Assembly: GCF_900156865.1 (NCBI RefSeq)
Contig: NZ_LT732529.1
Coordinates: 2,978,460-3,042,459, forward strand
Direction of reading: 5' to 3'
Source of the DNA: Litchfieldia sinesaloumensis
GTDB lineage: Bacteria > Bacillota > Bacilli > Bacillales > Bacillaceae_L
Length of the DNA stretch: 64,000 bases
The position numbers were made by a program, and so were the translations under genes. Below are positions 855-53,490 of the stretch, one piece after another (within the stretch, counting starts at the first letter, position 1; each line of letters opens with the position of its first letter). Below the pieces are notes generated by a model. It was not told the origin of the DNA. It did not search any database and saw nothing but the letters and a program-made list of their open reading frames with translations.

Positions 855-1530
855 TGCCAAAATATGCCTACCAAAAAGGGAAGGGGTCTAGAGATATAAG
901 GAATTGGATGCGAAATCCCGACTTAGTTTGTCGCATTCACTTCGGCCGGTGCGACTTATGGGACACAGATTTCAGATTATGGGACACTGCGTTTGATTTA
1001 TGGGACACTGGGTTCATTTTATGGGACACAAATCAAATTATATGGGACATTAACGTAAAGATATGGGACAAACCCGCAAATGCCAAAATATACTTACCAA
1101 AAAGGGTAAGGGTCTAGAGATATAAGGAATTGGCTGCGAAATCTCGACTTAGTTTGTCGCATTCACTTCGTCCGGTGCGACTTATGGGACACAGATTTCA
1201 GTTTATGGGACACTGCGTTTGATTTATGGGACACTGGGTTCATTTTATGGGACACAAATCAGATTATATGGGACATTAACGTAAATATATGGGACAAACT
1301 CGCAAATGCCAAAATATACTTACCAAAAAGGGTAAGGGTCTAGAGATATGAGGCATCGGATGCGAAATTCCGACTTAGTTTGTCGCATTCACTTCGGCCG
1401 GTGCGACTTATGGGACACAGATTTCAGTTTATGGGACACTGAGTTTGATTTATGGGACACTGGGTTCAGTTTATGGGACACAAATCAAATTATATGGGAC
1501 ATTAACGTAAAGATTTGGGACAAACCCACA
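855..1530. repeat. Three tandem 226-bp units, each with a six-unit 21-bp-phased TATGGGACA array
   Basis: Units begin at 855, 1081 and 1307 (period exactly 226). Each holds six TATGGGACA-type cores 21 bp apart: 957, 978, 999, 1020, 1041, 1062; then 1183-1288; then 1409-1514 (last core TTTGGGACA). Each array ends in GGGACAAAC. Before each array is a short inverted repeat, GTCGCA...TGCGAC (930-955 in copy 1). Copies 1 to 3 differ by a few substitutions only, so the amplification is recent. The array can be read as LWDTxFx heptads, but no ribosome binding site precedes those frames and I treat it as non-coding. Confidence 0.93.
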
Positions 1531-1580
1531 TTTCCTCCCGTTCCACCAAACTGATATACTTGTAGATAAGAGGTGAGGTT

Positions 1581-1967
1581 ATGCAAAAACTACAATTCGA
1601 AGCAGCATGGGACCGGACCATTTCAGAGAAGGACCGCCGAGAGATCCAGAGCACTTTTCAAGAGGTAGCCCCGAGTTTAGAGCCTGGAATTCATTTTACA
1701 ACGTTCCGGATTGCTGTAAACCACAAAAACGAACAGTTAGTAACGTCTATCATCCATAATTGTACGGAAGAAAGTTTCCTTTTTAAAAATACACCACTAC
1801 AGATTTGGAACGGAGACACCTTGTTAGCCGAACAAGCCTTTACGATTTCATCACTTCAAGTAGGCCCTGAAACTAGCATGCCTTGGACCTTTATTTTTCC
1901 GGCTGATGGTTTTGAGATTTCGGAGTCTACTAAAGATGCCAAACTTAAGCTAAAGAAAGAGAAGTAG
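1581..1967 (+). CDS. SLAP domain-containing protein
   Basis: A 128-residue soluble protein with the pattern of Firmicute SLAP-domain proteins: FEAAWDRTISEKDR at the N-terminus, FRIAVNHKNEQLVTSIIHN in the middle and SMPWTFIFP near residue 100. No signal peptide or membrane segment is visible. The ATG is preceded by GAGGTGAGG. Function is not established for the family; in some Bacillus relatives the domain accompanies accessory secretion or surface genes. Immediately upstream lies the 226-bp tandem repeat, which therefore occupies the promoter/leader region. The gene converges with the YdhR-like gene across a shared terminator. Confidence 0.75.
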   Translation: MQKLQFEAAWDRTISEKDRREIQSTFQEVAPSLEPGIHFTTFRIAVNHKNEQLVTSIIHNCTEESFLFKNTPLQIWNGDTLLAEQAFTISSLQVGPETSMPWTFIFPADGFEISESTKDAKLKLKKEK

Positions 1968-1999
1968 ATTCCAATCTAGAATCCACTTCTCCATTTTTT
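1961..1999. terminator. Bidirectional terminator between SLAP gene and ydhR-like gene
   Basis: An imperfect hairpin, GAAGTaGATTC (about 1961-1971) pairing with GAATCcACTTC (about 1979-1989), followed by CCATTTTTTA on the plus strand. It overlaps the SLAP stop codon and lies at the 3' end of the convergent minus-strand gene. Confidence 0.65.
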
Positions 2000-2300
2000 A
2001 TATTCGTCCTTTTGTAATTTCGGTTAGTTTTGGATTGACCGCTAAGATTTTTGCATTCACATCATTTATTCCAAACCCAGCTAGTCGCTTAGTGTGCATG
2101 TCTAAATATTGTTTTGCATTTTCCTTTGTCTCGAAAGCATAAATCCCACCCGCTATTTTTGCTTCGGGATCTTCTGTCCAAATTTTCCAGAGGAATCCTG
2201 GTTCGTCATTGATACTTTTCGCTAAATCAGTGAATGCCTCCACCATTTCATCACCGAATGGTCCATCCATTTTAAAATCAACCTGTAATACGTATGCCAT
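1998..2300 (-). CDS. YdhR-like putative monooxygenase
   Basis: A 100-residue protein resembling the YdhR family (dimeric ferredoxin-like alpha/beta-barrel fold). It starts MAYVLQVDFKMDGPFGDEM and includes EPGFLWKIWTEDPE and AGGIYAFETKENAKQYLDMH, as in YdhR and related small oxygenases. It lies 26 bp downstream of a flavin reductase gene, which could supply reduced flavin or simply share regulation. The substrate is unknown. The family call is fairly secure; enzymatic activity is inferred. Confidence 0.75.
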   Translation of the reverse strand: MAYVLQVDFKMDGPFGDEMVEAFTDLAKSINDEPGFLWKIWTEDPEAKIAGGIYAFETKENAKQYLDMHTKRLAGFGINDVNAKILAVNPKLTEITKGRI

Positions 2301-2326
2301 TTTTTAGCCTCCTACACGTCTAAAAT

Positions 2327-2890
2327 TTATTTTTCTCTAATTCCTTTCAATGCTGTAGACCAAGCCACAACATCGTCTATCGTTTTATGTAAGGAATCCT
2401 CGTGGTGTGCTGCTGGATTGAAGGTCCTCATATCTTGAAAATCCGTAAATAGGCTCATGGCAACTTGTGGTCCAACAGTTGCTACCTTTGGAACGGTTAA
2501 GATAAGGCGTAAATCATTTGCTGCGGTTACCCCTAAAGTTGATCCATAGCTAACAATTCCCGCTGCTTTGTGATTCCATTCTACATATAGATAATCGATG
2601 GCATCCTTTAACCCCGATGTAATAGCCTTATTATACTCTGGCGTTACAAAAATAAATCCGTCGAGACTGTTAATTTTTTCAGACCATGGATGTGCTTCTG
2701 GGGCTTGATAATCCTGTGACATAATTGCCGGAATAGGTTCATTAAATTTTGGTAGATTGTAATCCTTAATATCTATCAACTCAAAATCTGCATCATTTCT
2801 TTTGTCTGCGATAGACTTCACCCATTCCGCGACCTGAATATTTACTCTTGAATCCCTAGTGCTACCTGTAAGAATACCAATTTTAATCAT
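2327..2890 (-). CDS. NADPH-dependent FMN reductase family protein
   Basis: A 187-residue flavodoxin-fold reductase. The phosphate-binding loop GSTRDSRVN (residues 9-17) and the FMN-contact motif TPEYNKAITSGLKDAIDYL (about 104-122) are clear. Such enzymes reduce FMN, quinones or azo compounds with NAD(P)H. The start has an AAGGAGG site. It forms a two-gene unit with the YdhR-like gene downstream. Confidence 0.85.
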   Translation of the reverse strand: MIKIGILTGSTRDSRVNIQVAEWVKSIADKRNDADFELIDIKDYNLPKFNEPIPAIMSQDYQAPEAHPWSEKINSLDGFIFVTPEYNKAITSGLKDAIDYLYVEWNHKAAGIVSYGSTLGVTAANDLRLILTVPKVATVGPQVAMSLFTDFQDMRTFNPAAHHEDSLHKTIDDVVAWSTALKGIREK

Positions 2891-3001
2891 TATGTTTCCT
2901 CCTTATATTGTATCTACATTCAGTGTAGCAAGGACGAAACCATTAACACACCAACAGTAAATTGGTAATGTTGCTTATCCAACACTTTTCAAAAACTGTA
3001 T

Positions 3002-51955: not shown

Positions 51956-51970
51956 AATAATCTCCCTTTT

Positions 51971-52016
51971 GAGGGACAGGCTGTCCCATATTTCCAGCCC
52001 TATGATTCGATAGGGC
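51971..52016. repeat. REP-like palindrome and second hairpin between lacR and ganA
   Basis: GGGACAG-g-CTGTCCC (51974-51988) followed by ATATTT, then a second perfect hairpin GCCCTAT-gattcg-ATAGGGC (51997-52016). They fill the 69-bp gap and could uncouple or stabilise the ganA transcript. Confidence 0.7.
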
Positions 52017-52024
52017 GGTAGACT

Positions 52025-53011
52025 CTAGCGACTACTATCACGGATGACTAACTCAGTTGATATAAATATTTTCTTCGCAATTTGACGGCCAGCGATTCGT
52101 TCAAGGATCGTATCAACCGCCGTTTCACCCATCACTTCTGTGTGGACCTTCACCGTGGATAACGGTGGAAAAACATATTTTGAGACACTGATATCGTTGA
52201 TACCAATGAGACTAACCCGCTCTGGCACAGCAATTTTTTCTTCATTTAAAGCTCGTAATGCACCAATTGCAAGTAAATCATTCGCCGCAAAAAAGGCAGT
52301 CGGGAGTGCATCACCCTTCGTTTGAATGGCTTGCTTCATTAGATTGTAGCCATCCTCAACTGTGAATCTTCCTATATATAGGTTGCTTTCATCTAATAGA
52401 TTCGCATCTAGTAGAGAGGCTTTGAACGTTTTTTCCCGTGTCTCTTCAATTTCAGCCGAATGGTCCTTGAATTCCTCACGCCCACCTAAATAGCCGATAT
52501 TTGTATGACCACTTTCAGTAAAATGTTTCAGGACTGTTTTAGTCGCCTTTTCAAAATCAACAACAACTGCGTCGTAGACATCCTCATCTGGGCTAGAATC
52601 AACAAACACAAGATGCTCTACCATTTGTGAAAGCTCTTCAACTTGGCCCGCGCTGAACTTCCCAACTGCGATAATTCCCTGAAGATCCTCCTGCTTGATG
52701 CTTTCAATGCTATTGTAAAAGTTCGCTACCTGAACGCCGTGCTGCTCGCAACGCTGCTCAATCCCCAGTCGAATCGACATATAGTACAGGTCATTAAGCT
52801 CTTCCTTTTCGGTATACCAAAGGAGAATCCCAATCCGAGCAGACGAGGACTTTTTGGAAGGACGTTTTTTATACGAAAGTGCCTCGGCAATCTCAAAGAT
52901 TCTCTTCTTCGTATCATCACCTACCGACAAGCTGGCATCATAGTTGAGCACACGTGATACCGTCGCAATCGAAACGCCCGCCTTCTCCGCTATATCTTTA
53001 ATCGTCGCCAT
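52025..53011 (-). CDS. LacI-family transcriptional regulator of the galactoside locus
   Basis: 328 residues. Helix-turn-helix [22 protein letters not shown] (2-23) with hinge EALSYKKR, then a periplasmic-binding-protein-like effector domain ([36 protein letters not shown]). It resembles GanR/LacR-type repressors, which release DNA on binding galactobiose or a related sugar. GGAGATGAATC precedes the ATG. The region directly upstream consists of two six-unit 21-bp arrays. Likely target: the operator-like palindromes around the galK promoter. Confidence 0.9.
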
Positions 53012-53061
53012 GATTCATCTCCTCTCTGTGGGAATATCATATTTGTTTGCGTTGTTAATTG

Positions 53062-53093
53062 TACCCCGGGCCAGATTTGTCCGGGGTATTTTT
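53062..53093 (+). terminator. Terminator-like hairpin at the edge of the lacR-galM arrays
   Basis: TACCCCGG-(11-nt loop)-CCGGGGTA (53062-53088) followed by TTTTT on the plus strand. No plus-strand gene precedes it. It borders the array at 53098. Confidence 0.55.
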
Positions 53094-53097
53094 CGGA

Positions 53098-53490
53098 TAT
53101 GGGACACTATTTCTGATTTATGGGACAAACCACTGCAGATATGGGACACTGCTTTTATTTTATGGGACAATCTTCGCAGTTTATGGGACAGTACTCCGGA
53201 TTTATGGGACAAACCGAGATTTCGCCCGAGTCGGCCGCTGGGATTGTTCCCTAACTGCGGATGATTGTGCCCCTACGTAGGAAAATCTCTCTCTATACTT
53301 GCGATAATTGTGTCTAAATCAAAATTTTCGTGCCTTAGATCAGATTTGGCCGGAGCCTGTTCCAGATATGGGACACTATTTCTGATTTATGGGACAAACA
53401 CCTGCAGATATGGGACACTGCTTTTATTTTATGGGACAATCTTCGCAGTTTATGGGACAGTACTCCGGATTTATGGGACAAACCGAGATT
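53098..53490. repeat. Two tandem 269-bp units with six-unit 21-bp-phased TATGGGACA arrays
   Basis: Cores start at 53098, 53119, 53140, 53161, 53182, 53203 and again at 53367, 53388, 53409, 53430, 53451, 53472, all 21 bp apart; unit period 269. Between them lies a decayed TTGTGCC-type series (53244 TTGTTCC, 53265 TTGTGCC, about 53308 TTGTGTC, about 53328 TCGTGCC), as in the 42-kb copies. The region lies between galM and the LacI-family gene, so it forms the regulator's upstream region; no gene is seen in 53012-53534. Confidence 0.93.

Follow-up and report, generated by a model that had tools for sequence, protein, structure and literature searches.

The 64,000-nt stretch of the Litchfieldia sinesaloumensis chromosome analysed here (hereafter the window; G000 denotes its genome, other G-numbers the genomes compared and L-numbers the loci fetched) carries phased arrays of the word TATGGGACA, which is repeated in direct orientation, about six times per array, at a pitch of 21 bp. 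The genes next to the arrays include ctpB, ftsE, cccB and an essC-type gene; these names, as well as that of ftsX used below, are presumed from Pfam matches together with gene order, and the PDZ-domain gene at 9515–10720 is taken to be minJ from gene order. The following features were recorded:

957–1082, + strand: six-unit TATGGGACA array, block 1 of 3 of a 226-bp tandem block, site D
1183–1308, + strand: six-unit array, block 2 of 3 of the 226-bp tandem block, site D
1409–1534, + strand: six-unit array, block 3 of 3, last core TTTGGGACA, site D, upstream of a gene for 128 amino acids (1581–1967)
11028–11152, − strand: six-unit array with one 20-bp interval, site A, in the gap between ctpB (11420–12865) and the PDZ-domain gene (9515–10720)
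11226–11351, − strand: six-unit array, second block of site A
20566–20595, + strand: two-core array remnant, site B, absent from the original prediction made on this stretch
20670–20794, + strand: six-position array, one core lacking a G and one GGAACA, site B, in the gap between cccB (20837–21184) and ftsE (19487–20173)
42008–42133, + strand: six-unit array, block 1 of a 290-bp tandem block, site C, downstream of the essC-type gene (43025–47683)
42150–42190, − strand: remnant of a second 21-bp word, TTAGGGCACAAT (on the + strand ATTGTGCCCTAA; also ATTGTGCCC), site C
42298–42423, + strand: six-unit array, block 2, site C, one core AAAGGGACA
42588–42713, + strand: six-unit array, block 3, site C
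53098–53223, + strand: six-unit array in the gap between a LacI-type gene (52025–53011) and an aldose epimerase gene (53535–54569)
53367–53492, + strand: six-unit array, second copy in the same gap

With one mismatch allowed, TATGGGACA was matched 80 times in the window, compared with a mean of 14.1 and a maximum of 21 in 100 shuffles. All 11 arrays of the original prediction, which had been drawn from the letters of the window, were recovered in their places and between the long genes, as it had said. Its count of 53 intervals of 21 bp among 55 agreed with the intervals as re-read, the remaining two, of 20 bp, lying in 11040–11152 and at 20670, and GGGACA, described there as almost invariant, was exact in 63 of the 65 units counted. 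The claim of exactly six cores per array stood for 10 of the 11 arrays. The array at 20670 keeps all six positions, but a G is missing from the second core (TATGGACA), and the detector therefore counts five units and one 41-bp gap. Apart from the two-core remnant, a single exact core was found outside the arrays of the window (51982), the word thus being used in arrays and hardly ever singly. Near-identical tandem blocks were present at two sites, 226 bp × 3.0 (853–1527) and 290 bp × 2.5 (42007–42743).

The logo of the 100 units of the G000 arrays is TATGGGACA. Two bases past the core, A or T is present in 267 of the 272 units starting with TAT (genomes other than G002), and the core is preceded mostly by K-W, from which a site of about 13 bp (consensus K-W-TAT[G or C]GGACA-N-W) would follow, with about 8 bp left free. 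The arrays are polar. Of the 17 last units of the G000 arrays, 14 have AAC after the core, versus 3 of 83 inner units, and a related tag, [ATC]A[GC]C, was found in 10 of 23 last units versus 1 of 109 inner units in the genomes G004 to G007. Between orthologous arrays, the rate of change in cores is about one tenth of that in spacers: over 36 orthologous units of G004 and G006 there were 5 changes in 324 core columns versus 66 in 432 spacer columns (Fisher P = 5e-12). A scan of periods from 14 to 33 bp over the window and loci L152–L191, most of them picked for 21-bp arrays, placed 49 of 52 matches at 21 bp and 3 at 20, a few of the matches being near-perfect repeats.

The original prediction had proposed a search of the whole genome and of relatives, and a record of strand relative to replication. 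In the whole G000 genome (4.56 Mb), with up to three mismatches, 60 matches were obtained at ten sites, and the total was 17 arrays at 10 sites, 15 of six units and 2 of five with the loose detector, 13 and 4 with the stricter one; arrays were also found in congeners and in other families. With dnaA at C3:3,577,065, the ten sites lie at −598, −588, −578, −557, −546, −342, −236, −164, +77 and +845 kb from it, 10 of 10 within 37% of the half-chromosome around dnaA. The mean distance between site and dnaA is 453 kb (P = 0.00025 for 10 sites; P = 0.0013 if the five-site cluster is taken as one). As to strand, TATGGGACA reads toward the origin at 9 of the 10 sites (P = 0.02). In B. subtilis, part of the chromosome is caught in the forespore before SpoIIIE pumps the remainder (available part of PMC6593407); the placement of the G000 arrays resembles that part, a likeness that is suggestive only.

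Nine genomes of the genus, G000 to G008, were compared, G002 being taken to be B. timonensis. Most genomes use one core word, which varies from one genome to the next. G004, G005, G006 and G007 (hereafter the C-genomes) have the same type of array with TATCGGACA, base 4 being C in 216 of 216 counted units; among 98 units of G000, 96 have G and 2 have A at this position, and G002 shows different bases side by side in single arrays (18 G, 6 C and 2 A over 26 units). According to clusters of flanking genes, nine sites are common to at least two congener genomes, each with one orientation. Among the C-genomes mean spacer identity was 0.65 at the same site (19 pairs) versus 0.47 elsewhere (149 pairs). 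Between G002 and the C-genomes it was 0.515 at the same site (14 pairs) versus 0.452 elsewhere (96 pairs; P = 0.001), which argues for point mutation of base 4 in single G002 units; at site C, TATGGGACAACCTTTTCAATA of G002 pairs with TATCGGACAAACTTTTCAATA of G004. In a tree of five proteins G000 fell outside all congeners but G008 (support 70), with G002 (59) and G005 (55) weakly placed, so that G at base 4 either arose twice or is ancestral. By eye, one decayed unit is kept at site A in G001 and G003, another phased repeat, TATGCGTCTGAA, occurs at 20 bp in G001 and in degenerate form in G003, and G008 carries TATCGTGCATAT-like units. The second 21-bp word, TTAGGGCACAAT, occurs in arrays in G004, G006 and G007, where it was matched 4, 4 and 14 times, respectively.

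Beyond the genus, three copies of TATNGGACA at 21 bp, with one mismatch allowed, were present in 10 of 397 genomes of the order, six of them in the genus and the other four, G105, G187, G273 and G278, in other families. Further words at 21 bp were CTATCGGAAA, TTATGTGCC and TTTACTTGCC in G105, TATTGGACACTTT in G278 and GCGGATTGA in G273. Arrays of other words (TTCGGTAA, TTTATGCG, CTATCGGAAA) at 20–21 bp occupy, in other families, the same two gaps as in the window, ctpB–minJ and cccB–ftsE. The ctpB–minJ gap of G044 has about eight blocks of TTCGGTAA-type units, one of them of six units, and that of its congener G242 has a five-unit array; in the cccB–ftsE gap, at least eight CTATCGGAAA-type units at 20–21 bp were found in G105 and four runs of exactly six TTATGCG in G020. 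If the TTAT ends correspond, the orientation of these arrays relative to gene order would agree with that in G000.

Stretches of up to 20 kb around ftsX were taken from 20 genomes outside the genus and then from six more. Arrays were present in 6 of the first 20 regions, and all 13 matches of a scan of periods 13–40 fell at period 21. The random set consisted of 60 unselected stretches (1.06 Mb, 56 of them longer than 1 kb), which were first stretches of contigs; the strict scan of periods 13–40 gave one array there, at period 21, and a looser scan three loci, two at 21 and one at 20. The comparison of ftsX regions with the random set was 6/26 versus 1/56 (P = 0.004), or 6/26 versus 3/56 at the looser threshold (P = 0.03). 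A second detector gave 18 chains of at least five units at 20–21 bp in 5 loci of the 26 ftsX regions; eight other spacing classes yielded no chain in these regions, nor did the random set yield any.

Searching contigs for four TGGGACA at 21 bp gave 79 stretches, most of which are, by eye, near-perfect 21-bp tandem repeats of unrelated phyla; the related-looking ones, also by eye, were L140 (B. timonensis) and L075 (Lysinibacillus antri, 4 units). The Hymenobacter array L094 sits in open frames. Diplocloster agilis and D. modestus (e.g. L086, L097, L103) have many TTTGGGACATGTCCATTTCGG-type 21-bp arrays over several contigs; their spacers are near-identical, and they are therefore probably a different element.

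We tentatively prefer, at a probability a little below even, the reading that the arrays are binding platforms for a co-evolving DNA-binding protein of head-to-tail type, with an architectural role near the origin. Each array would be a discrete polar DNA element of about 126 bp, with six sites of about 13 bp on one face of the helix and the distinct last unit closing it. A sequence-specific protein would bind cooperatively, head to tail, one molecule per unit, and the six-site platform would seed a nucleoprotein structure. Its role would lie in the folding, anchoring or segregation of the origin-proximal chromosome and not in the control of one neighbouring gene. A bound oligomeric protein, or a nucleoid function, was among the explanations offered in the original prediction; it gains indirect support from pitch, copy number, core conservation, word uniformity and the origin-proximal place, but no protein was identified. 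A broader proposal, which we regard as possible but doubtful, is that of chromosomal address arrays throughout the Bacillales, with about six sites at 21-bp pitch in positions fixed across families. Their word would have been replaced genome-wide repeatedly, and a fast-evolving family of head-to-tail proteins would read the words and thereby arrange the third of the chromosome nearest the origin, perhaps that which the forespore captures first. This may be likened to the co-evolution of centromeres and kinetochores or of DNA-uptake words.

In geometry the arrays are like iterons, plasmid centromeres or LytTR sites. Plasmid iterons and type II centromeres are direct repeats of about 20 bp and share with the arrays the phasing at two helical turns and the handful of repeats per array; the arrays, in contrast, lie at many chromosomal sites and conserve only 9–13 of 21 bp. 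LytTR operators are 9-bp direct repeats 12–13 bp apart, which is also the geometry of the arrays, with their 9-bp core plus 12 bp. REP/BIME and bcr repeats are intergenic and multicopy, as are the arrays, which differ in having no fold above shuffles and in keeping pitch and place while the word changes. The ram site of RacA is an inverted repeat; the arrays are direct repeats with A/T flanks and not a GC-rich inverted repeat. The DnaA-box word is TTATNCACA. DnaA boxes were rejected as the identity of the arrays, the logo of 100 units being TATGGGACA and only the four TTATCCACGA units of G015 coming close.

Six DnaA-box clusters are located outside the replication origin of B. subtilis (available part of PMC5295017). 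They are similar to the arrays as short binding words clustered away from the origin, whereas the arrays have another word, which varies by species, and a 21-bp pitch with about six units. The TTATCCACGA units of G015 stand at 21 bp in L304:19531–19615; their word closely resembles a DnaA box and could link some words to DnaA-box clusters. The ram sites are dense near the origin and have an architectural role (available part of PMC6593407), two points of likeness; in contrast to the arrays they are GC-rich and bound by a symmetric dimer (excerpt of PMC5859096), and RacA was not matched in three array-bearing genomes. BldC repeats are shorter in pitch than the arrays and are situated at promoters of developmental genes. 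Head-to-tail binding to direct repeats, proposed only for the arrays, is established for BldC according to the excerpt of PMC5859096.

Among the alternatives, a selfish satellite is unlikely. It would be copied and homogenised in tolerant gaps by a trans-acting enzyme (transposase, recombinase) or by slippage, without benefit to the cell, and the tandem block copies, the several words per genome and the turnover of the word at one site in G001, G003 and G008 speak for it. Against this, core change is some ten times below spacer change between orthologous arrays, the units of G002 changed one base at a time, the last unit is distinct, and orientation is conserved per site; moreover, the 19 window proteins scanned, ten of which flank arrays, include no transposase, transposases not having been sought genome-wide. 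The last two results also bear on the mobile-element end suggested in the original prediction, which did not hold, site and orientation being conserved between species; transposon ends of IS21, Tn7 or Mu type were rejected, as the arrays are direct and lie at shared sites. Its suggestion of a repeated RNA structure fared no better. In 31 six-unit arrays folding was equal to that of spacer shuffles (mean z 0.15 forward and −0.36 reverse), without extra stability, and Rfam 15 at gathering score gave two matches overall in the window, L315, L321 and L322, none in arrays. Peptide heptads (LWDTxxx or CPIxxxx), which it had itself dismissed, fail too, although the WDT frame stays open in 28 of 34 six-unit arrays. 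Changes between G004 and G006 fell at third positions of this frame in 18 of 71 cases and never at the GAC wobble base (base 8, C in 100 of 100 array units of G000), the 20-bp intervals break the frame, and the CPI frame contains 81 stops in 263 units. An RNA element or coding heptads are thus scarcely credible.

Operators of neighbouring genes with LytTR-type geometry would agree with the 9-bp core and 12-bp spacing, and BldC and some response regulators bind direct repeats (excerpt of PMC5859096); the arrays, however, are placed up- and downstream of functionally unrelated genes, on either strand and often in several blocks of six, which makes this rather improbable. Distinctly improbable, in our view, are chromosomal iterons or decoys, that is, arrays mimicking plasmid or phage iteron or centromere arrays and titrating an initiator or partition protein. 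The two-turn pitch, the five to eight direct repeats and the several words per genome fit iteron geometry. On the other side, scanning of window proteins revealed no rep or par gene, and none was recognised by eye next to the other sites; no initiator or adaptor gene was present in the ten flanking window genes (Pfam; two without any family), other flanks being viewed by eye only; and the gaps shared over families are left unexplained. Matches in viral contigs amounted to 31, 3 and 14 stretches, and no array of this build was recognised in the loci viewed, namely the arrays of the set of 31 and eleven loci of the other two (hosts undetermined), plasmid collections not being searched. Finally, the arrays might be a ram-like centromere of the sporulation anchor RacA. 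Their origin-proximal placement agrees with it, and a RacA match was present in 9 of 9 congeners, the closest family models being RacA, though below their cut-offs, as well as in G044 and G187; among the nine congeners, Thr14 of the recognition helix is peculiar to G000 and Ser17 to G001 and G003. That correlation depends on single branches, however, no RacA match at E ≤ 1e-6 was found in the array-bearing G105, G278 and G273, and RacA is a symmetric dimer on a GC-rich site (excerpt of PMC5859096). RacA was therefore rejected as general recogniser, and the ram-like centromere is highly improbable.

Several results weigh against binding platforms with an architectural role. The recogniser was not found, RacA alone having been tested, and the origin-proximal placement was measured in one genome, G000. 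Between G000 and the C-genomes, sharing a site does not raise spacer similarity above that of other pairs (24 versus 174 pairs, P = 0.31), perhaps owing to saturation, and the case for descent of those arrays consequently depends on position, orientation and number of units. G001 and G003 manage with decayed remnants, so that the element would be dispensable or replaceable. Unit number and spacing, whose variation across the genome the original prediction had named as evidence against a phased element, were mostly constant, the exceptions being arrays of n = 4, 5, 8 and 11 in congeners, 7, 8 and 10 in G105, and mostly five in the blocks of G044. Stops in the WDT frame numbered 12 versus 26.8 expected by column shuffle, which favours heptads but is given little weight, since the same shuffle calls the 81-stop frame depleted too.

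The counts around ftsX are also to be read with care. Eight of the 26 genomes (G105, G044, G024, G086, G242, G069, G273 and G278) were picked knowing that arrays were present there or in a congener; without them the count is 4/18 (P = 0.01), and 3/18 (P = 0.04) without L305 as well, whose array overlaps a 144-codon open frame. L304 has four units only, and of the five chain loci (L315, L317, L320, L321 and L322) only L315 is from a genome picked without prior knowledge. The six further ftsX regions, including those of the array-bearing G273 and G278, gave no array after filters and, unfiltered, one match, in L324. The probability given to binding platforms was left as it was after these six regions, because this reading rests more on the congeners than on the ftsX count.

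The arrays were not described in the titles and abstracts of mainly open-access literature, among the matches listed, and they are filed here as a new class of element, set apart by failing the tested features of iterons, RacA sites, DnaA-box clusters, REP/BIME and transposon ends. Bacteria seldom offer a view of a binding word being replaced across a whole genome while its sites stay in place. As B. timonensis is mixed within single arrays and its relatives are uniform, the co-evolution of a protein with its target, some hundred units, can be put to a direct test. Should the arrays organise the chromosome near the origin, they would form a centromere-like layer beside ParB–parS, DnaA-box clusters and RacA, and one easy to overlook, because the word changes between genera while pitch, approximate unit number and place are constant.

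Additional elements were observed at and around the array sites. A second dispersed element, GGGACGGTTCTNNTGGTCCC, is present in the ctpB–minJ gap of four congeners (L163, L172, L174, L176) and in 10 of 329 loci overall, including L162, L167, L199, L207, L209 and L211; a related-looking stretch, GGGACTGTCCC...TTGTCCCAC, lies near position 773 of the window. The cccB–ftsE gap of G004 to G007 (L158, L160, L163, L176) contains a gene for a putative NERD-domain protein of about 330 amino acids, which is not in the G000 gap. Beside a TATCGGACA array in a secG-type/enolase-type gap of G005, the open reading frame L200:8644–9324 resembles a phased DNA repeat (TTTGCATCTTC-like) and may represent a further word at this site. 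The essC homologues G002:C2:529595–534220 and G004:C11:264560–269188 have one TGA and one TAG inside the match and are either broken genes or assembly errors.

Three viral contigs (L213, L214, L218) carry 21-bp TATCGGACA repeats with near-identical spacers upstream of a putative ATPase-like gene, the same word in a different build. GGGACA repeats in two others (L045:2838–2887 and L070:7361–7460) lie just upstream of a putative small-terminase-like gene and are possibly a packaging site. In the window, the Rfam family Bacillaceae-1 RNA, filed in Rfam as an sRNA gene, was matched at 35160–35227 (+ strand) with 65.4 bits (gathering score 35).

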